Source: Streptomyces sp. NBC_01451 (GTDB lineage Bacteria > Actinomycetota > Actinomycetes > Streptomycetales > Streptomycetaceae). Taken from it: DNA of 64,000 bases. This document shows, piece by piece, positions 9,408 to 20,123 of this stretch (position 1 is its first letter; each line of letters starts with the position of its first letter). The notes under the pieces were generated by a model. It was not told the DNA's origin and ran no database searches. It saw only the letters and a list, made by a program, of their open reading frames with translations. The DNA is taken from NCBI RefSeq assembly GCF_036227485.1, contig NZ_CP109479.1:6386001-6450000 (forward strand). The letters are read 5' to 3'. Both the position numbers and the translations under genes were made by a program.

Positions 9408-9620
9408 ATGAAGCAGAGGGTGGCGCGCTGGTGGCCCACGACACGATCGGTTCTCGCATGGTGGGTGTGTGTCACGCTCGTTCTGTGGCTGTTGGGCATG
9501 GCTCTCGGACAGCCTGCAGGGATCTTCCCCTGCGCTGCGTCCGCGGGGTTGCTGGTGGCGATCGGGGAAACGGGCGACTGGGTGCGACGGCGGTGGAATG
9601 CGCGCCGCCACGCCGGCTGA
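9408..9620 (+). CDS. Small membrane protein
   Basis: 70 residues with two hydrophobic segments (about residues 15-35 and 38-55) flanked by basic residues, ending in an Arg-rich tail. The ATG at 9408 has GGAGG 9 nt upstream; a farther in-frame ATG at 9360 has no ribosome binding site. Short proteins of this kind occur across Streptomyces, but I know no function. Confidence 0.6.
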   Translation: MKQRVARWWPTTRSVLAWWVCVTLVLWLLGMALGQPAGIFPCAASAGLLVAIGETGDWVRRRWNARRHAG

Positions 9621-9792: not shown

Positions 9793-10089
9793 TCAAACCA
9801 TTGTTCCCGATGAGGCATGGCGATCTGCCTCATGCCTGTACTGGCGGCGTTTGCGGATTTCCCTGAGAGACAGAACAACGACCGCGAGGTTCAAGGGGAA
9901 GGCGACGGCGTTGGCCACTTGCGGGATGTCGAAGGCGCGCAGCGCGCTTGCTCCAGCAGCGATCAAAAAGAGTGCGAGCGGCAAGAACCTGCGCCATGTC
10001 GGAAGGTCCCGTGTCCGGGCGACCGTGACAGAGCACCACAGGGCGAGGCAGAAGAAGGCGATCCCGAAAGCAGCGACGGCGGGAACCAT
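9793..10089 (-). CDS. Three-TM membrane protein, candidate immunity protein for the Rhs toxin
   Basis: 98 residues with three membrane helices: about residues 4-24, 33-52 and 58-76. A basic, Arg-rich cytoplasmic tail follows. It starts 138 nt downstream of the Rhs gene on the same strand, the position where polymorphic toxin loci carry immunity genes. The ATG at 10089 has GGAG 9 nt upstream; a frame-compatible upstream ATG at 10182 would add 31 polar residues. The immunity role is inferred from position only, and I recognise no immunity family. Confidence 0.55.
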   Translation of the reverse strand: MVPAVAAFGIAFFCLALWCSVTVARTRDLPTWRRFLPLALFLIAAGASALRAFDIPQVANAVAFPLNLAVVVLSLREIRKRRQYRHEADRHASSGTMV

Positions 10090-10226
10090 GCGGGGCATCT
10101 CCACGAGGGAATCCGAGGCAAACGCGGTGGACGACGCAGCCTGCGGCTTTGCGGTTGGGACAGGGCGGGCGCTCCGCGACAATCGCCGCGGAGCGCCCGC
10201 CCCAAGGGCTATCAGTCAGGGCAGGT

Positions 10227-13200
10227 TCAGCCCTTGGTATAGACGATGCGGTAGCTGGACACATATCGCATGGATGTTCTTGTCCAGCTCCAGCCTCCGG
10301 TCCGAGTCCACTTGATCCCGGTCCACTTGATGCGGTAGGTCGTGCGGTCGCGGTAGGAGTACTGGTAGTGCGTTTCGAAGGTCGCAAGGATCTTCTGCCT
10401 GCCCCAGCCGTACCAGGCCGCGACCTTGCATTTGAAGATGTACTGCTTGCGGTAGCGGTACTGCCGCTTCCACGCGCTGATGGGAATCGGCCCGTAGTCA
10501 CCGCTCAGAATGTCCATGTACCAGTGCCAGTTGACGTTCTGCCAACCGCTGTAGCTCCACCGGGTGGTACGCAGAACTGTTGTGAAGCTGCGTCCGGTCC
10601 AGGCGTGCTTGGGCACGCGGCAGGTCGCGCAGCCGGTGACGTCCTCGTTGTTGACAGGGTCGGCGCACGCGTAGTCGTAGGCGTTGCAGCTACCACCCGG
10701 TACCGGGTCGGCCGACAGGAAACGGCCGGTCGACGGGTTGTACAGGCGGACACCCATCAGAGTAAGGCCCGTGAGGGTTTCCGTGGACCGGTGCATGCCG
10801 CCGTGCCACCCGTAGCGGATCGTGCTGGAGGTGTTGGTGCGGTTGCCGTACTCGTCGGTGGTGAGCACGGTGGGTGCCTGGCCAGCGATGGTGGGCAATT
10901 GCATCACCACGTCGCCGTGCAGGTTGACCAGTTGCAGCACGGGCGAGCCGGTCTTGGCGGTGGTGGCCACCAGTTGCCCGTCGAATCCGTTGACATTGCG
11001 GGTGACCGCGCCGGCGGCGTCCTCCACGGTCCAGCGCGGGGTGTCCGCGTCGGAGCTGTAGTGATTGACCTTGGACTGGGTCTGTGTCCAGGTGCCGGAG
11101 GCATTGGATTCCACGGTCCAGCCGCGGAAGCGCAGCTGGGAGTCGAGGGTCCAGGTCTGCCGCTGGTTGCCTGCGGTCTGCTGGCGCACCAGGTCGTTGG
11201 TGTAGTAGGCCAGCGTGGTGCCGGGGGCTGCTGTGGTGCGGCCGAAGGCGTCGTAGGTGTATCCGGAGTCGACCAGGCGGTCGGCGCTGTCGTAGGTGTG
11301 AGTGGTGATCGCGGCGCCGGTGGTGGTACAGGCCAGGCCAGGCTCGGCTGCCGCCGTGGCCAGGGTCTTGCGGTTGGCGTTCTTGTCGAGGGTGTAGCTG
11401 CGGGTGATGCAGACACCGTCGACGGTGTCGTCCTCCGCCCGGACGAGCCGGCCGGCCTTGTCGTACCGGTAGGTCTGGCTGGAGGTTTGGCCCAGCGAGC
11501 CGGTGTAGGAGGAGCGCTGGCCGTGGACGGTGGGGATAAGGGTTTCGGAGAAGAGCACCTCGCCGTCGCTGTCGCGGGTGTACGTCCGCTGCATCGCCAT
11601 GCCAGCCGGGTTGGTGCTCTGGCTCATGGTGTAGCCGCCCGGCAGCTTCTGGGAGCGCACCTGTCCGTCGGCGTCGTAGCGGACGCTGAACGCGCCGGCC
11701 ACGGAGTCCGTGATCGTCGTGGGCAGGCCGCGAGGGTCAACGCTCGTGTCGTACGCGTAGCTCGTACTGGAGGGCACGTTGTCGCTGACGAGGACGGCGT
11801 GACCCTCGGCGTCGTACTGGCTGGTGGTCACCCCTCCGTCCGCATCGGTGTAGGAAATGAGGCGGCCGAGCTTGTCGTACCCCTTTTTGACGGTTCCGCC
11901 GCCGGTGGAGGTGATCTCGGCCACCTTGCCGCTGACCGCGTCGTACGTTGTGGTGACTGCTGGGACGGCGGTTCCGGTGCCCCCGGTGATGGCCACGGTC
12001 TTCGCGCGGCCTGCGTCGTCGTATTCGGTGGTCTTGACCCGCGTGGTGCTGTTGGCGCTCTCCGACAGCTTGGAGGTTTCGCCCCACCGGTCGTACTCGG
12101 CGGTCGTGGTCACCAGTTGGGTCGGGTTGGAACCCCCGCCGGTGATCGCCGCGGCGGGCCGGGTGCGGCATACCTCGTCGGCCCATTCGGCCCGACCACC
12201 GCAGACACCGGTGCCGTCGCCGGTGTAGTAGTCCGTGATCAGCGTGCCGGCGTCGGATCCGGTGGAGACGGGCATGCTGCGGGTGATCTGTCTCCCTGCG
12301 GTGTCGTAGGTGGCCTTCTCGGTGATGGCCAGGCCGCCCGGGTCCTGGATGGTGCTGGTGGGCTCACCTACCACCCAGTCGTAGACGGTCTGGGTTATGC
12401 GGGCATCGGCCGTGAGCGTCGGCCAGTTGCGCGGCTGGCCACCTTCGGTGCGCTTGGTGACCTTGTCCGAGATGGTGGCCGTGCCGTCGGTGGGTCGGCC
12501 GTCGTCGTACTCGCTCACGGTACGGTGGCGCACGATCGCCTGGTCACCTGCGGCCAGCACCGTGGTGGTGCCGTCCTTCAACTCGGCGTCCAGAACAACC
12601 CGGTGCAACGGACCGAGCGTTTCCACCTCGCGGGAGCCGTCAGCGTTGTAGATGCCCCGGTTGGACAGCAGTTCGGCACGCTCCGCTGTCGGCAGGCCGA
12701 CAATCCCGAGGTCGGCCAGCTGGGCCTTGTCGGCGTCCGTGGTGCCCATCGCCAAATTGCGGTTGGCTGCGGACAGCTCGCGGACCGCGTTGCCGAACTG
12801 GTCGTACTCCGTGGTGGTGATGTTCTTGGCGGCATCCAGGGTGTTGGCTTCACGGCCGGAGGCGTTGAGGTAGTGCACCAACGCCCGCCCGTAGTCGCTC
12901 GCAGCAAGGGAGGCGCCGCTGTGTGAGGCAGGGACCGAGCCCGTGGGGAACACCGCGGTGGCGTCCGTGGGCGCGTCGAGCTGTCCCCAGGGCGCCACGT
13001 CGCCGGTGCCCATGGCTTGGGGGGCCTTGGTGCCGGTGAGCGGTACGCCGTACACGACGGACGTTTGAGCCGTGCCGCCGTCCAGTTCATCGGCGGAGCC
13101 GGCTTTCAATGTCGGGCGGGATGCCTTGAGCAGCATGCCGTCGCCGGACACGGGATCGGTGCCGACCTTGCCGTAACCGAACGTCCAGGCCAGCTGGCCC

Positions 13201-16200
13201 GGCGGCGTGAACTGGATGACGCGGCCGGCGGAGTCGTATACATACGTCGTCTTCAGCGCCGGGGTGACCCTGGGGTCCCAGGTCTCACGCAGGCGGCCGG
13301 CGTCGTCGTAGGTGTACTTCGCCACGCTCGTCGCGGTGGAGGCGGTAGTGCCGGGGGTGGTTGCCCACACCCGGATCTCGGACACCTGGTCCTTGACGTT
13401 CCCGAAGGTTGTGGCGGTGGCGGTGGTCGACGAGGCGTAGACGAACTCCAGGACGCGGCATCCTCTGGTGGCCGGATCGGCCTCGCAGGTTCCGAGAGTC
13501 ACCGCGCTGGTGGCGGCGATCACGCGCTTGGGACGGGCGAGGACCTTTCCGTCGACGGTGACTGCCTCGGGGATCACCTCGGTCGTCGAGTGGGCCTGGC
13601 CGTCCACCAGGGACCGGGAGACTGTCCAGGCGACGGCGGAGGAGGTGACCCGGCTGAAGGTGGTGACGTTACCCTCGGTGTCCGAAAGCGTGAAGTCGCC
13701 GCTGGTGAAGGTGCCTTTCAGGGTGAGGTCTTCAGAGCCCGGCTCGGGGATCCAGCCGGTTTTGGCCGAGTTGGCGGAGAAAGCGAACGTCTCTCCGCCG
13801 GCCGTAACGATGTCGAGCGAAGTCGCCGAGGTCTTCCGTAGCTCGGAATAGTCGGACTTCACGGCCTGCGCCGTAGTGCCGGCCACCCACTCCTTGCCGA
13901 AAATGGCCGCCTGCCCGTCCTGTGCCGCCCCGGCCTGTGGGATGCGGGAGGACGCGCTGCGGGTCACTGTCATGTCGAGCACGGAGACATCGGTGCCGGA
14001 CAGGGTGTAGTCGCCGGTGAGGAGGTTCAGCGAGCCGGGCCCGACCTCACTGGCGGCGGAACCGTCGGCATTTCGGTCCACTACGACGGACAGCGGCTGC
14101 GTCGCGCCGAGGGCCCCGTTGGGGCCGGTGAAGTCGGCCTTGATCTGGATCGATCCGTCCGGGTCGACGGTGTCTGTGGTGTTCCACACGAGCGCTGCGT
14201 TCTTGCCGCCCGCCAGAGGCACCGGCCAAGCCGTGAGCGCCGTCCCGCCGGAGGTGACGTTACCGACGGGGATCTTCACCCAGTCGTCGGCCTCGGACCG
14301 GCGCCAGGAGAAGGACACGGCGTCGTACTTGCCCGTCTCTGCCTCGGCGACCAGCGGAAGTCGGCGCGCCGTGCGCTCACCGTCGGACGGCTGGATGAAG
14401 CCCCCGGGGCCTGCGTGGAAGATGTACTCGGTGGGTTCGGACTTGTTGTCCGCCTTGTCGACGGACCGTACCTGCAGGGTCTGGGTGCCGTCCTTGGGCG
14501 GAGTGATGGAAAGTGACTTGTTCGCGGTGGACCCGCCGGTGGCAACTTTGGTCCAGGTCACCCCGTCCAGCGACCACTCCAACCAGTTGTGGTCGGCTGC
14601 GGGAGGCGTGACGGTGAAGGTGCCGGCCTGTCCTGTGCCCTTGACCCACTGGCTCGACGGGTAGTCGGTCGAGGTGATGTTCGTGGGGGCGGAGGGAGCC
14701 TTGGTGTCGACGGTGAACGTCTTCCATGCCGACCAGCCGACATTGAAGTGCGTCCCGTCGTACGGCGACGTACGGAACTTGTACGTCTTGCCGTCACTCA
14801 GCACGCCGGACGCGACCGTGACCTCGGCAACCTGGCCGGAGGGCACCCACGGGGAGACGAGGTACTCGCCGACCTTGGTGTCGGTCGCCGCGTCGCGCAC
14901 CTCGAACGTGCCGTTGACCTTGTCGCCGTTGGCGTCCACGAAGGTGTCACGCAGTGTGGGGGTCGTGGTGTCGACGACGTAAGTGCCGCCGTAGGAGAAG
15001 TACGGCGGTCCCGCCTCCTGCTTTGTGCCCGTGCGCGGTCGATAGTTGTAGTTCACCACGAGCTTCGGCGGGTTGGAGGCCGCGTTGGCGGAGTTGACCC
15101 GCTTCCACTGCGCGACGACCGACTCGCTGGTGGCCCGGATGCCCATATGGCCACGGGTGGCCTTGGCCGAGGCCCACTCCTGGACCAAGGCTGTCACATC
15201 GGCGTTGATCCACCCGTCGGGCTGCGCAGTGCAGTCGGCGTTGCCGCGGGTCTCGGTGGAGGTGGCCTTCTTCGCCGTCATCGTCGGACGGTTGGTCCAC
15301 CGGCTTGAGGTGGACGCCGCCGGGGACGACCAGACCTCCCACGGGTAGAGCTTGCAGTCGGTGTTGCCCGAGTGGAAGTTCCACAGGGACAGCTTCGCAT
15401 CCAGGACCAGCGCGTCCTGGATGGGCGAGGTGTTCCAGGAGACAAAGGACTGCGCCGTGCGCGGCGTGCCATCGGCGTTGGTGGTGCCCGGGTTGCCGAG
15501 GTCCAACTCGGTGTCGGCGGACCAGTCGACGGTCTCGCCCTGCTGGACGTAAGTGTCGAAAACGTTCGACAGCGAGGACGTGGACGGGTCGACGGTGACC
15601 GGGTACCTGGTCACCGGATCGGCGAGGAAGCCGGCGTCCGGGGTGACCACCAGGTCGACCGACGAGCCCTGCTTCACAACCTTCAGGCCGACCTTCGCCT
15701 TGTGGGTGTGCTCGCCTGACCGCTCGTCGACGGTGGAGTCCCACATCACCGGCGCGGGCATAACGGCCCGCTTCTTGTTCTTCTTGTCGGTGAACTGCAC
15801 ACTGCCGTCGGCGAGTTGCTTTACTTTCAAGCCCTTGGCCTTCAGCGGCAACGTATACGTGTAACCACCTGCGGTGGGCCGCTGTTTGATCTCCACGAAC
15901 TGCTCGAAGCCAGTGCGCGTTGCTTCGACGACCACGTCCGCGCCCGGAACGGCGTTGGCGTACTCAGCACGCGTCCCGTCGAGTGAGGGCTTCGGCAGGC
16001 CACCCTTCCACTGGAGGGTGATCTGCTGTTCCCCTTCGCCGAGCGTCACCAGGTCGGTCGCCTTGGCCTCGCGTGCGGCTTTCAGGGACGTGGCGGGGGT
16101 TCCGGTCTTGCCGGCCAGGCGCAGCCCGTCCGGGTGTGCTTTCGGCTCTACGCCGCCGGCGACCTCCTGCAACTCGACATCGACGTCGGTCCATTGGCCG

Positions 16201-16568
16201 TCCCGCTGGAACCGGATCGGCCCTGCCGCCAGCTCTGTGGTCAGACTGCCGTCCTTGTTGGCCCAGGTCGTCGACGTCTCGGTGCGCTCGCTCAGCGCCT
16301 CCACACGGTGCCCGGAGAGCCGGGCGGCAATGCGGGCCGAGGGTATGTCGTCGGCCTGCTTGACGATGGGCTTCTTCGGTTTGGCGGCCTTCACCTCAGG
16401 GCGCTGGCCAGGAAGGCTGAGGGCGACGACGTCGCCTGTATTGGCGACCACGAGGACCGACTCGGCGGCGAGTAGCATCGCGGCAACTGCCGCAATACGG
16501 GGCAAGGCACGTCTGCGGCGGTGGAAGGCCAGCACGGAACCCCGAATTCGAGGTGCGGCACGTCTCAT
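10227..16568 (-). CDS. Rhs/YD-repeat polymorphic toxin-like secreted protein with novel C-terminal domain
   Basis: A 2113-residue secreted or surface giant protein. It has an N-terminal Arg-rich signal peptide (hydrophobic core about residues 24-48) and a DNRLRE-like beta domain at about 330-505. FN3-like segments follow at about 590-700, and many YD repeats (YDxxGR type) run from about 1085 to 1940. The Rhs core motif NPSTGRFLSADP is at 1944-1955 and the DPVNNEDVTG boundary at 1970-1979. The last 134 residues are the variable tip. They have about 12 Trp, 14 Tyr and 24 Lys/Arg but only about 4 Asp/Glu, and match no toxin family I know. The start ATG has AAGGGA 8 nt upstream. A small membrane protein gene follows and a two-component system is divergent. 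Confidence 0.9.
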   Translation of the reverse strand: MRRAAPRIRGSVLAFHRRRRALPRIAAVAAMLLAAESVLVVANTGDVVALSLPGQRPEVKAAKPKKPIVKQADDIPSARIAARLSGHRVEALSERTETSTTWANKDGSLTTELAAGPIRFQRDGQWTDVDVELQEVAGGVEPKAHPDGLRLAGKTGTPATSLKAAREAKATDLVTLGEGEQQITLQWKGGLPKPSLDGTRAEYANAVPGADVVVEATRTGFEQFVEIKQRPTAGGYTYTLPLKAKGLKVKQLADGSVQFTDKKNKKRAVMPAPVMWDSTVDERSGEHTHKAKVGLKVVKQGSSVDLVVTPDAGFLADPVTRYPVTVDPSTSSLSNVFDTYVQQGETVDWSADTELDLGNPGTTNADGTPRTAQSFVSWNTSPIQDALVLDAKLSLWNFHSGNTDCKLYPWEVWSSPAASTSSRWTNRPTMTAKKATSTETRGNADCTAQPDGWINADVTALVQEWASAKATRGHMGIRATSESVVAQWKRVNSANAASNPPKLVVNYNYRPRTGTKQEAGPPYFSYGGTYVVDTTTPTLRDTFVDANGDKVNGTFEVRDAATDTKVGEYLVSPWVPSGQVAEVTVASGVLSDGKTYKFRTSPYDGTHFNVGWSAWKTFTVDTKAPSAPTNITSTDYPSSQWVKGTGQAGTFTVTPPAADHNWLEWSLDGVTWTKVATGGSTANKSLSITPPKDGTQTLQVRSVDKADNKSEPTEYIFHAGPGGFIQPSDGERTARRLPLVAEAETGKYDAVSFSWRRSEADDWVKIPVGNVTSGGTALTAWPVPLAGGKNAALVWNTTDTVDPDGSIQIKADFTGPNGALGATQPLSVVVDRNADGSAASEVGPGSLNLLTGDYTLSGTDVSVLDMTVTRSASSRIPQAGAAQDGQAAIFGKEWVAGTTAQAVKSDYSELRKTSATSLDIVTAGGETFAFSANSAKTGWIPEPGSEDLTLKGTFTSGDFTLSDTEGNVTTFSRVTSSAVAWTVSRSLVDGQAHSTTEVIPEAVTVDGKVLARPKRVIAATSAVTLGTCEADPATRGCRVLEFVYASSTTATATTFGNVKDQVSEIRVWATTPGTTASTATSVAKYTYDDAGRLRETWDPRVTPALKTTYVYDSAGRVIQFTPPGQLAWTFGYGKVGTDPVSGDGMLLKASRPTLKAGSADELDGGTAQTSVVYGVPLTGTKAPQAMGTGDVAPWGQLDAPTDATAVFPTGSVPASHSGASLAASDYGRALVHYLNASGREANTLDAAKNITTTEYDQFGNAVRELSAANRNLAMGTTDADKAQLADLGIVGLPTAERAELLSNRGIYNADGSREVETLGPLHRVVLDAELKDGTTTVLAAGDQAIVRHRTVSEYDDGRPTDGTATISDKVTKRTEGGQPRNWPTLTADARITQTVYDWVVGEPTSTIQDPGGLAITEKATYDTAGRQITRSMPVSTGSDAGTLITDYYTGDGTGVCGGRAEWADEVCRTRPAAAITGGGSNPTQLVTTTAEYDRWGETSKLSESANSTTRVKTTEYDDAGRAKTVAITGGTGTAVPAVTTTYDAVSGKVAEITSTGGGTVKKGYDKLGRLISYTDADGGVTTSQYDAEGHAVLVSDNVPSSTSYAYDTSVDPRGLPTTITDSVAGAFSVRYDADGQVRSQKLPGGYTMSQSTNPAGMAMQRTYTRDSDGEVLFSETLIPTVHGQRSSYTGSLGQTSSQTYRYDKAGRLVRAEDDTVDGVCITRSYTLDKNANRKTLATAAAEPGLACTTTGAAITTHTYDSADRLVDSGYTYDAFGRTTAAPGTTLAYYTNDLVRQQTAGNQRQTWTLDSQLRFRGWTVESNASGTWTQTQSKVNHYSSDADTPRWTVEDAAGAVTRNVNGFDGQLVATTAKTGSPVLQLVNLHGDVVMQLPTIAGQAPTVLTTDEYGNRTNTSSTIRYGWHGGMHRSTETLTGLTLMGVRLYNPSTGRFLSADPVPGGSCNAYDYACADPVNNEDVTGCATCRVPKHAWTGRSFTTVLRTTRWSYSGWQNVNWHWYMDILSGDYGPIPISAWKRQYRYRKQYIFKCKVAAWYGWGRQKILATFETHYQYSYRDRTTYRIKWTGIKWTRTGGWSWTRTSMRYVSSYRIVYTKG

Positions 16569-16760
16569 CGAATGACATCCCTTACAGATCAGGACATGCG
16601 GGCACCCGATCCGACCACTTCTGCCACCACAAAAGAGGTGAGATCTTCACCAATTCTGCGTACAACCCTTGTCCGGTCTGAGCGGTCAAAAACCCGGCGC
16701 AGGGGTATGCCCTCCATCAAGGTCAACCGAGGTCCAAGGTCACGAAGGTGGGGAGACTGT

Positions 16761-17924
16761 GTGAGGCTTCGTATGCGGGTGACTCAGGCGACCGGGATCG
16801 CATCCGTGTCCTTGACGGTCCTGGTCACGGGCTCGCTCGCATTGCTTGGCGCAGAGGTGCTGGCGCAGCCCGTGAGCAAGGGAACACTGGTCACCGGTTT
16901 CATCCTGATGATCCTGCTCCCCGCCGTGCTGCTCGGCCAATATGCGCCGCCTCCCTACCGTCTCCCCTACCGGTGGCGGTGGGGACTGCTCGCCTTGCAA
17001 GCGTTGCTCACCTACTTTCCGGTCCTCATTTTCGAGTACTCATGGCTCAGCCTCCTGGGCTTTCTCGCGGGCGCGGTACTGCTGACAGTGCCGCGTCCCG
17101 CTTCGATCGTCATCGCGGTCGCCGTGGCAGCCAGCGGCCCCCTGCTCGTGAACAGCAGTTTGGTGACCGCACAAGGCAGTGGCCTGAGTGTGCTGGTGTC
17201 CACGGTCATCACCGCCAGCAGCGTGTATGCAGTGGTCCACCTCGCCCTGCTCGCAGCGCGTCTTCAGACATCGCACAGTCAGGCGGCGCGGCTTGCGGAG
17301 CACCGTGAGCGGGCCCGCATGGCCCAGGACTTGCACGACCTAGTGGGTTCGTCTCTTGTCTCCATCGCCGTGCAGAGCGAAAGAGCGCTTGCTCGCACCG
17401 AGAGCAGCACACCGGGACACCGTGCCCTGAGAGAGATCGCGGTCCTGGCGCGACGCACCCATCAGGATATGCGGGGCGTCACCAGTCAGCGGGTCGCCGC
17501 CCATTTTCACACCGAACTTGCTTACGCTCAAAGCCTGTTGTCCCAGGCAGGGATCGCCACATGTACCGTCTTGCCACCCCGAATGAATCTCGCGGGGCCC
17601 ATAGCTCACTGCCTCAGTGCCGTTCTACGTGAAGGCATCGGAAACGTGCTCCAGCACAGCCAGGCATCGAGCTGCGAGATCGAGATGACAGCGCACGCCT
17701 CCCGCCTGTGCTTGACTATCGACAACGACGGCGCACCGCCCCGGGTGGGAGACCCTGGATCGGGCAGTGGACTGGCGAATTTGCGGTACCGGGTGCTGGC
17801 GCAGGGCGGCACGTTCGACGCACGCCCTTACGCCGGACACTTCGTCATCACCATTGAGCTGCCGCTAAATCCATCCGTGGCTTTCGGCGATGCGAATTGC
17901 GTCGATGAGGGTACGCGCGTGTAA
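16761..17924 (+). CDS. Two-component sensor histidine kinase (HisKA_3/NarL-type)
   Basis: 387 residues. Five or six N-terminal membrane helices (about residues 8-150) are followed by a HisKA_3 dimerisation region with the phospho-acceptor His192 in QDLHDLVG. A HATPase_c domain follows, with an N box near NVLQHS and a G box in GSGSGLANLRYR. It should phosphorylate the adjacent NarL-type regulator. The GTG at 16761 is chosen because GGTGGGGAG lies 6-7 nt upstream. It is divergent from the Rhs gene (193 nt apart), and its 3' end overlaps the regulator's 3' end by 60 nt. Confidence 0.88.
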   Translation: MRLRMRVTQATGIASVSLTVLVTGSLALLGAEVLAQPVSKGTLVTGFILMILLPAVLLGQYAPPPYRLPYRWRWGLLALQALLTYFPVLIFEYSWLSLLGFLAGAVLLTVPRPASIVIAVAVAASGPLLVNSSLVTAQGSGLSVLVSTVITASSVYAVVHLALLAARLQTSHSQAARLAEHRERARMAQDLHDLVGSSLVSIAVQSERALARTESSTPGHRALREIAVLARRTHQDMRGVTSQRVAAHFHTELAYAQSLLSQAGIATCTVLPPRMNLAGPIAHCLSAVLREGIGNVLQHSQASSCEIEMTAHASRLCLTIDNDGAPPRVGDPGSGSGLANLRYRVLAQGGTFDARPYAGHFVITIELPLNPSVAFGDANCVDEGTRV

Positions 17925-18467
17925 TTTCCCCACCGCGGCGGACAGACGGTTGCGCACCGTACCGACACTTAGAAAGAGATCCGCGGCTATCGATCGCGGG
18001 TCGGCTCCGCTCGCGGCCAAGCGGAGCACCTCCGCCTCACGCATCGTCAGCGGAGTGGCCGCCGCTGCCTCCTCCGCCAGCTCCGGAGGCTCAATCACCC
18101 GGCCGCCGACGCTGACCGTACGCACAGCCTGTGCGAGTTCCTGTACAGAGACGGACTTCAGTAAATACCCCGACGCTCCGGCATCGAGGGCGCGCCGGAC
18201 GTAACCGGCCCTGTCCATGGCAGTCAGCATCATCATCCGGCAGCCCGGCACCCGCCTCGGCAGCTCCCGCACCAAAGCCAACCCATCCATACCGGGCAAA
18301 TCAATGTCAAGGAGGGCCACGTCGGGTGAGGCGCCTCCCGCCATCTCCAGTGCCTCGTGTGCGTCGGCCGCACTACCCACAACCTCGATGCCGAACTCAC
18401 CGTCAAGGAGAGCGACCAGCCCCTCCCGGACCACTTGCATGTCTTCCACAACGAGCACCCTGATCAT
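17865..18467 (-). CDS. NarL/FixJ-family response regulator
   Basis: 200 residues. The receiver domain has the acidic pair at Glu8-Asp9 and the phospho-acceptor Asp54 in LLDIDLPG, with a conserved Lys in LLKS. The C-terminal LuxR-type helix-turn-helix contains LTMREAEVLRLAASG. The ATG at 18467 has GGAG about 9 nt upstream. It is tail-to-tail with the kinase, with the last 60 nt shared, which is unusual because cognate pairs are normally codirectional. It probably controls the divergent Rhs gene or nearby island genes; this is an inference from position. Confidence 0.88.
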   Translation of the reverse strand: MIRVLVVEDMQVVREGLVALLDGEFGIEVVGSAADAHEALEMAGGASPDVALLDIDLPGMDGLALVRELPRRVPGCRMMMLTAMDRAGYVRRALDAGASGYLLKSVSVQELAQAVRTVSVGGRVIEPPELAEEAAAATPLTMREAEVLRLAASGADPRSIAADLFLSVGTVRNRLSAAVGKLHARTLIDAIRIAESHGWI

Positions 18468-18502
18468 GAGCTGAATGCTCCGGTACGAATCCGGCCTGCG
18501 CA

Positions 18503-18885
18503 ATGCACCAACCTGGCCCTGCCGATGTGGCTGTACGTCGGGCCAGCGCGCAGTGGTTTCGGCTGACCGTGGCCCCAGGGACGCCAGGTGCGCGCGACGC
18601 CTTCCTCGCCCTACTACGGCCACTGCTGTTCGCCGCCGCCCTCGCCGTGGCCGCCCTGGTGTGTCTGCCGTCCTTCGTGCTCGGCCGGATCGCCGCCCGG
18701 ATCCTGCGGCTGGACGCCCTGGTGACCCTCTCTACGACCCTGGCCTGTGGCGTGAAGAACGGTCACACCACCGCGGTGGCTCTCAGCACGGGGCTGTTGA
18801 TCGTCGCCGTCCGTGTGCGCGACTCGCGTGTCAGGGCGCCCGTTCACCCTGGTCATCGGCGGCTGGGGCACACTGGTCGGGCTGA
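18503..18885 (+). pseudogene. Possible degraded membrane protein ORF
   Basis: One plus-strand frame has a hydrophobic pair of segments (LFAAALAVAALVCLPSFVLG, then LSTTLACG and LIVAVRVR). The continuation FTLVIGGWGTLVGLTRAQRV is in another frame after about 18835. This suggests a frameshifted fragment of a membrane protein of unknown family. There is no clear ribosome binding site. It ends just before the left inverted repeat of the IS. Confidence 0.3.
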
Positions 18886-19006: not shown

Positions 19007-19342
19007 GTGAGTGACTACTGGGCGCCTGCCCATGATGCGGTCGAGCACGACAATGCGGAGGCTCTGGCCCGGTTACTGGCCGACGGCGCTGATCCCGACG
19101 AGGTCTTCGGCAACATGACGCTGCTGACGCACGCCATCGATGCCGAGGGCGACAGCTCCCTGCAGAGTGGTGAGCCGCTGACGGTTCACATCACTGCTGT
19201 ACTGCTGGCCTTCGGCGCTGACCCGGAGCTCGCGGATCCAGACGGTTGTACACCGCTGGACATGGCCGCCCAGAACGGACACGAGCTGGCGGTGAATCTG
19301 CTGCGGGCCCACATCAACCGGCGAGCCGCCGGTAGCAGATGA
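19007..19342 (+). CDS. Ankyrin-repeat protein inside the IS boundaries
   Basis: 111 residues with two ankyrin repeats, visible as LARLLADGADPDE and VLLAFGADPELADPDGCTPLDMAAQNGHE (split here into consecutive repeats), so a protein-protein interaction role is likely. The GTG at 19007 is the most plausible start; an in-frame TTG at 18995 is possible. The last residues, from about 19318, are encoded by IS-derived DNA and overlap the transposase 3' end, so the native C-terminus may have been replaced. It lies directly downstream of the left IS repeat, with no other gene between. Confidence 0.65.
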   Translation: MSDYWAPAHDAVEHDNAEALARLLADGADPDEVFGNMTLLTHAIDAEGDSSLQSGEPLTVHITAVLLAFGADPELADPDGCTPLDMAAQNGHELAVNLLRAHINRRAAGSR

Positions 19343-20123
19343 GGGTGCAAGCGATACTCGTGAAGGCGAGGAAGTGCTCAGCTTTGCGTTCGTAGCGGCG
19401 GTGGAGTCTGCGGCAGCCGACGAGCCAGGCCACTGACCGTTCTACGACCCAGCGGTGACGTCCCAGGCGGGTGGAGGACTCAACGCCGCGTCGGGCCAGA
19501 CGGTGCGTGATGCCCCGTTCGCGGAGCCATTGCCGCAGGTGGCGGTAGTCGTATCCCTTGTCGCCGTGCAGCTTGCCGGGCTTACGGCGGCGCGGCCCGC
19601 GTCGCGAGCGGATCGGCGGGATACCCCGCACGAGCGGCTCCAGGCCCTGGCTGTCGTGCATGTTCGCGCCCGAGATACCGACTGACAGTGGCAGACCGGT
19701 GCGCTCGGTGATCAAGTGGATCTTCGACCCGTACCTGCCGCGATCCACAGGATTCGGACCTGTCAGATCCCCCTTTTCATCGCCCTCATGTTCACCGAGT
19801 CGATCGCGCACCGCGACCAGTCCAGCTCGCCGCGGGACCCGAGCTCGTCGAGCACCAGGCGGTGGAGCTTGGCTCACACCCTGGCCTTCGTCCACTCGGT
19901 GAAGCGTCGGTGAGCCGTCGCGCCGGACGGCCCGAACGACGCGGTCGGCAACTGCTGCCACGTGCAGCCCGAGGTCGCCACGAAGACGATCGCGGCCAGC
20001 ACTTCGCGGTCGCCATGCCGACGTCGGCCCCCACCCTGGGGCCGTGACGGCGCCTCCGGAACCACCCGCTGGAACAACTCCCACAACTCATCCGGCACCA
20101 GCCGCTCAACGATCCTCACCACG
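19314..20123 (-). pseudogene. IS5-family DDE transposase, inactivated
   Basis: The N-terminal half (VERLVPDELWELFQRVV, then a TWQQLP-type segment) is interrupted by an in-frame TGA at 19874-19876, in place of the usual Trp codon after KARV. A second frame change is needed at the AAAAGGGGG run near 19775 to reach the C-terminal half. Such a run can be a programmed frameshift site in related IS groups, but the TGA is disabling. The C-terminal half keeps DDE features: AIDS, LHGDKGYD with the second Asp, and RHRWVVERSVAW with the Glu. It ends in CYRRLAG. Confidence 0.85.

Follow-up and report, generated by a model that had tools for sequence, protein, structure and literature searches.

WapA of Bacillus subtilis is a secreted polymorphic toxin combining a DNRLRE domain with YD repeats, and its described C-terminal tips are tRNases accompanied by soluble immunity proteins. 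The tip of Tse5, an Rhs protein of Pseudomonas aeruginosa, is helical and hydrophobic. Tse5 is described as bringing to the membrane a fragment that forms pores (PMC10684867), and polymorphic toxins were surveyed in 2012 (PMC3482391). For the Tc toxins, a net positive charge of the cargo is reported to be required for translocation and a cargo size of about 20 kDa or more to be needed (PMC6868009), and another survey reports that the isoelectric point (pI) of the cargo is not critical for its release (PMC7861908). Here, we analysed a Rhs/YD-repeat gene carried by a 64,000-nucleotide stretch of the genome of Streptomyces sp. NBC_01451 (contig NZ_CP109479.1, positions 6,386,001 to 6,450,000; hereafter the window). 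Its 134-residue C-terminal end, here called tip A, had been singled out in a sequence-only reading as very basic, rich in Trp and Tyr and matching no toxin family known to that reading. We propose that this tip, as part of a secreted Rhs protein of the WapA kind, is probably a toxin that acts on the membrane or envelope and is guarded by a three-helix membrane protein (3TM) encoded downstream.

The tip and its membrane partner

The pairing of the tip with the 3TM gene is well supported. This gene lies directly downstream of the tip in eight of the nine distinct tip-A loci, the ninth (L034) having none in 3.3 kb of sequence. Four of the eight paired loci have a shortened or frame-broken Rhs gene: at L032 the Rhs match is limited to residues 1732-2113, and at L036, L077 and L078 it is spread over several frames or pieces, the 3TM gene being present each time. 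The flank upstream of the Rhs gene is common to the window, L031, L032 and L077. Among 392 Streptomyces genomes the 3TM gene occurs in 30, compared with 7 for the tip-A profile (six with tip A and one with the divergent tip B described below, the window's own genome counted). Twenty 3TM loci were inspected, of which 6 adjoin tip A and 13 are without a Rhs or tip match within 1.5 kb. At L188, the 3TM gene comes almost immediately after a core remnant, a deletion having taken the tip and spared its neighbour. In another strain, a 171-residue protein (P0025) runs from tip A straight into the 3TM protein, so that the two adjoin there too. Since the neighbour is kept after loss of the toxin, the 3TM gene behaves as an immunity gene, and its product would protect the producer from the tip. 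This product is an integral membrane protein almost devoid of a soluble part, with the conserved motifs PxWRRFxPL and ASxLRAxxIPxxANA, and no Pfam or NCBIfam family is over cut-off for it. Tip B, found in genome G017, is followed by a different small membrane protein (PGPGLP) that comes near Pfam PGPGW, below cut-off; in S. glaucescens, a tip-B remnant (P0032) likewise continues into the PGPGLP membrane protein.

The remainder of the protein is that of a Rhs polymorphic toxin. The models TIGR03696, TIGR01643 and PF05593 are all over cut-off and account for YD/RHS repeats and a core ahead of the tip, the TIGR03696 alignment reaching model position 75 of 76 at the end of the Rhs-associated core, where the DPVNNEDVTG boundary motif occupies residues 1970-1979. 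The N-terminal stretch is basic and hydrophobic and, judged by eye, signal-like. With repeats and core before the tip, unrelated tips exchanged on related cores (see below) and an immunity-like gene downstream, the suggestion that the tip is the variable end of such a protein was borne out. The reading frame of the tip is genuine: its guanine-plus-cytosine content (GC) at codon position 3 is 0.851, as in the core (0.878), and its ratio of nonsynonymous to synonymous substitution rates (dN/dS) is 0.03-0.41 (15 pairs). The same ratio is 0.10-0.26 for the core (10 computable pairs, 5 pairs with L032 being not computable) and 0.14-0.43 for the 3TM gene (10 pairs). The lower GC at codon position 1 (0.396 in the tip, 0.603 in the core) is expected from the amino acids of the tip.

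Between the stop codon of the tip and the 3TM gene lies a strong RNA hairpin (z -6.46 in the window). A comparable hairpin exists in all six loci folded (z -4.2 to -6.4 in the five others; 0 of 200 shuffles as stable), the sequence of its stem varying by locus. Convergent with the 3TM gene is a gene for a two-helix membrane protein (2TM), 53% identical to the product of the gene that directly follows tip A in L034 and belonging to a family present in 37 of the 392 Streptomyces genomes. We rejected the 2TM protein as a general second immunity partner, given that the flanks read at 19 other loci contained neither a Rhs match nor a boundary motif. As a separate observation, two loci of one contig (L078 and L044, G204:C1:149750 and 8974274) each hold a broken tip-A Rhs copy with the membrane gene, at matching distances from the two contig ends and in opposite orientation, apparently within terminal inverted repeats.

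Tip exchange and the composition of the class

A search with the tip region in about 5.8 billion proteins gave 15 relatives at E <= 10 among 33 candidates, all of them named Streptomyces DNRLRE proteins. Fourteen have a complete tip, with identities of 67-96% in the tip and 69-94% in core segments; the fifteenth (P0015) keeps the first 19 tip residues, followed by 12 unrelated residues to its end. A profile search at tip length added 12 proteins, several with shortened or altered tips (nine named Streptomyces, three nameless). Tip B, a divergent subfamily (36% identity to tip A of the window in one alignment), is present in G017 and in seven proteins (five with Streptomyces names, two nameless). 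All named relatives of the tip are thus Streptomyces, and in 100 genomes of relatives (own included), matches better than E 0.05 were found only in the window's own genome and G017. C1, C4 and C68 (tip numbering) are invariant in both subfamilies, as are R, D, Q and K positions and several Trp/Tyr ones. The 25 A and B sequences have no invariant His or Glu in common; one Glu is invariant inside subfamily A only.

The core (residues 1561-1979) matches 97 of the 392 genomes at E <= 1e-30, and statements on tip exchange cover the loci read among the core matches listed. Cores at least 78% identical (the window, G135, G236, G204, G353 and G106) all carry tip A, and cores at most 65% identical carry different tips, with the exception of G017:C339, where a 56% identical core bears the homologous tip B. 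In a tree of 42 cores, the tip-A cores (11) and the tip-B cores (4) each form a clade of their own (100/100 for both), with cores bearing other tips between them. Since the A and B rows of this tree were mostly picked by tip, stability is claimed on the basis of the unbiased core list (six genomes). The tip is stable inside a clade and exchanged between clades. The sequence-only reading had proposed to check in related strains whether the core is shared and the tip exchanged, and had named a tip conserved in step with its core in all relatives as a refutation; exchange is seen beyond the closest clade, and inside that clade the tip tracks the core. Given this tracking and the core-like GC at position 3, we rejected a recent import of the tip.

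The related cores yielded 106 tips, tip B of G017 included. The 30 core loci L046-L075 contributed 27 tips (none from L055, L062 and L069; L049 has two boundary motifs, the second of which was used), and 79 further stretches left 78 after removal of L105, which is too short. Three tips longer than 200 amino acids (L136-L138) were omitted, and the remaining 103, a few of whose boundaries are shifted by one or two residues, form 41 clusters. These were joined by BLASTP at 1e-4 over 40% of length only, so that distant kinship between clusters is possible. HHalign related the tip profile to none of the 40 other clusters (best probability 1.35%); as a positive control, it aligned A with B at 99.16%. 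The Rhs tips of L046-L160 are numerous, short and cationic and sit on one Streptomyces Rhs carrier; hydrophobic helices and small membrane partners are seen for some, soluble partners for others.

A recount of tip A (residues 1980-2113: 12 W, 14 Y, 3 F, 9 K, 15 R, 3 H, 3 D, 1 E, 3 C) agrees exactly with the composition given in the sequence-only reading (about 12 Trp, 14 Tyr, 24 Lys/Arg and 4 acidic residues in 134), and its W+Y total of 26 compares with at most 12 in every 134-residue segment of the 1979-residue core. The basic, acid-poor makeup is not peculiar to this tip, being common to tips of the same Rhs class (median length 119 amino acids). Each of the 41 clusters has a positive net charge and an acidic content of no more than 7.6%, and 102 of the 103 tips are net positive. 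For the 41 representatives, the medians are W 5.6%, Y 5.7%, K+R 17.2%, D+E 2.8% and net +17.7 per 130 residues. The controls were the C-termini of 17 mechanically chosen window open reading frames (ORFs) and 12 further Rhs tips from the same genome, whose final 130 residues have W 0.8%, Y 3.1%, K+R 9.2%, D+E 10.8% and net -2.5. The difference from these Rhs controls is supported by Mann-Whitney p values of 1.8e-7 to 0.01, which treat clusters as independent and compare them with 12 tips all from one genome, two of them (L167 and L170) truncated where their stretch ends. An acidic content of at most 8% is found in none of these 12 over the last 130 residues and in one over the whole tip (L175, 7.2%), and their whole-tip net charges range from -23 to +15. 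The window's own genome has 16 Rhs-core matches, four of them of this class, whose tips have net charges of +7 to +20 and an acidic content of 2.0-3.5%. Within the class, the window tip is ordinary in K+R, acidic content and net charge (exceeding 54%, 51% and 63% of the representatives) and high only in W+Y (exceeding 93%). Tip composition by itself is therefore not diagnostic.

Predicted fold and competing explanations

Searches of Pfam, NCBIfam, PADLOC and PDB sequences matched the tip to no family, in agreement with its description as a tip that matches no toxin family, and a profile of 11 tips did not have it named among PDB sequences either. A sub-threshold NCBIfam match to an AB5-type binding subunit (E 0.13) was rejected. 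Ten other tips of the class gave one Pfam family over cut-off (DUF6973), one near miss (Tox-URI2) and none over cut-off in NCBIfam.

The AlphaFold2 model of tip A (25 sequences) has a mean predicted local distance difference test score (pLDDT) of 69, the first 30 residues being almost all below 50. It contains strands of 24 and 23 residues that form a long hairpin, followed by more strands, the 10-residue blocks along the long strands being at pLDDT 65-92. The tip B model, built from 21 largely overlapping sequences, has the same long-strand order at a mean pLDDT of 74, three of its five models being at 44-52. The two models have the long hairpin in common, with 10-residue blocks of pLDDT 64-95 along the long strands. 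In tip A, one predicted face of the three long strands holds 13 Lys/Arg and 1 aromatic residue and the other 2 and 14, an ordering as good in 0 of 5000 within-strand shuffles (two short strands were omitted); the corresponding faces of tip B hold 10 and 2 versus 3 and 11 (54 of 5000 shuffles as good). Over the whole tip, the beta-periodicity of hydrophobicity is just mildly above that of shuffles (fractions 0.011-0.061 for A, 0.026-0.030 for B). No 19-residue window reaches the hydrophobic threshold in either tip, that is, no membrane-spanning helix of the W-TIP/Tse5 kind is seen.

Comparison of both models with solved structures by Foldseek and VIA gave no significant match (best Foldseek E 0.077, query TM-scores 0.08-0.34). 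Profile comparison and structure prediction, proposed as checks in the sequence-only reading, yielded no family match and no significant fold match, and a long beta hairpin as a prediction. Many beta pore-formers (MACPF/CDC, gasdermin) stand near the top of the lists without significance, beside BPI/SPLUNC-type lipid binders, cystatin-like proteins and others. Given their weak scores (root-mean-square deviation of 8.9-10.8 in the VIA pore-former rows), we take these matches as common long-hairpin geometry only. That the tip forms a pore is a guess, and a doubtful one.

The membrane partner and the predicted amphipathic sheet lead us to read the tip as an antibacterial toxin that would act on the membrane or envelope. 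In the mechanism we propose, Streptomyces would use the secreted Rhs toxin against related bacteria; the YD shell would hold the tip and free it after the DPVNxxDxxG boundary. The free tip may then adopt a curved beta sheet around the long hairpin, cationic on one side and aromatic on the other, bind the target's anionic membrane or a membrane-bound envelope component, and insert into or disrupt it. The 3TM protein would shield the producer, and the strong hairpin may permit its separate expression.

The sequence-only reading had left the choice between nucleic acid and membranes, and the evidence leans to the latter. A toxin acting in the cytosol, such as a tRNase or another BECR-kind nucleic-acid enzyme whose charge binds RNA and whose entry the membrane protein blocks, would agree with the net charge of +20, with the Tox-URI2 near miss (a nuclease-type family) of one other tip and with the Glu invariant in subfamily A; some tRNases, moreover, function with neither His nor Glu. 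We consider it unlikely: the partner is integral to the membrane, and the charge, being class-wide, says little about nucleic acid, so that its use as a sign of nucleic-acid binding was rejected. No catalogued nuclease or tRNase toxin family in Pfam, NCBIfam or PADLOC matches the tip, although distant kinship may escape these models, and common metal-dependent nucleases are disfavoured by the lack of any His or Glu that all A and B sequences share.

The class-wide charge could instead be a signature of delivery or packaging only, the cargo of the shell having to be cationic and acid-poor like that of Tc cocoons. The uniformity of the 41 clusters, set against the 12 other Rhs tips, and the positive charge reported as necessary for Tc cargos speak for this; the finding that pI is not critical for Tc cargo release speaks against it, and it leaves unexplained the Trp/Tyr excess of the window tip and the ordered basic and aromatic faces. 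As the whole explanation, it appears quite improbable. A broader form, which we advance tentatively, is a cargo rule of this Rhs class by which tips are short, cationic, nearly acid-free and Trp-rich whatever their fold or target, dozens of unrelated and largely uncatalogued toxins having converged through shell packing or envelope crossing, with tips A and B as a beta-sheet membrane toxin of new fold. Very improbable, finally, is a non-toxic role, the tip closing the Rhs shell as a cap, adhesion or carbohydrate-binding domain and being conserved with the core for structural reasons. Tip and core identities do run in step inside the clade, and sugar-binding domains often have aromatic faces; however, related cores carry other tips instead, shortened or altered copies of the tip exist as separate proteins, and a cap would not need a 3TM gene that persists beside a broken Rhs gene or a deleted tip.

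Neighbouring features and known systems

The features of the locus are collected in Table 1. Divergent from the Rhs gene is a histidine kinase ORF, the 3' end of which overlaps that of a convergent LuxR-type response regulator ORF (minus strand), beside the toxin gene; a DDE transposase ORF lies about 2.7 kb upstream of the Rhs gene.

Table 1. Features of the Rhs locus, in window positions or, for the DNRLRE domain, in protein residues
Feature	Position	Strand	Description
2TM protein	9408-9620	plus	two helices
Candidate immunity protein (3TM)	9793-10089	minus	98 amino acids from a Met conserved among relatives, three hydrophobic helices
RNA hairpin	10162..10203	minus	between tip stop and 3TM gene; terminator-like, no U run
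Stop codon of Rhs ORF	10227-10229	minus	
Rhs/YD-repeat protein	10227..16568	minus	2113 amino acids
Variable tip (tip A), toxin-like	10230..10631	minus	134 amino acids, residues 1980-2113, net +20
Rhs-associated core end	10632..10856	minus	residues 1905-1979, closing in DPVNNEDVTG
DNRLRE domain	residues 338-506		of the 2113-residue Rhs protein
Histidine kinase ORF and LuxR-type response regulator ORF	16521-18623	plus; minus	
DDE transposase ORF	19314-20084	minus	

Should the reading of tip A as a membrane-acting toxin hold, a toxin/immunity pair that is uncatalogued and probably directed at the membrane would be added to those known. Attention is also drawn to the short cationic tips that share one Streptomyces carrier, of which few are catalogued in the sample scanned. 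The class-wide rule would also make testable by what route the cargo of a secreted Gram-positive Rhs shell enters a neighbouring cell. Among the titles and abstract openings listed in searches on Streptomyces Rhs toxins, orphan immunity and cationic or Trp-rich Rhs tips, from which subscription literature was mostly absent, neither the pair nor the rule is described.

The locus resembles WapA in its DNRLRE domain, YD repeats, Rhs-associated core, short tip and immunity-like downstream gene, and differs in having a three-helix membrane partner and a family-less tip where WapA has tRNase tips and soluble immunity. With Tse5 it would share a membrane-acting tip on a Rhs protein; Tse5, however, is delivered by a type VI secretion system and has a helical, hydrophobic tip, whereas the tip studied here is predicted to be mainly beta, with no hydrophobic helix. 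The TcB-TcC cocoon is alike in its encapsulating YD shell, its exchangeable tip and the cationic cargo reported as needed for translocation; it differs by the TcA injector, a Tc feature not sought here, and by its reported cargo size of about 20 kDa or more, against a median of 119 amino acids in this class. TspA/TsaI of Staphylococcus aureus, which depends on type VII secretion and is likened here by description, not by sequence, is similarly reported as a secreted polymorphic toxin of a Gram-positive bacterium that depolarises membranes (PMC9484751).
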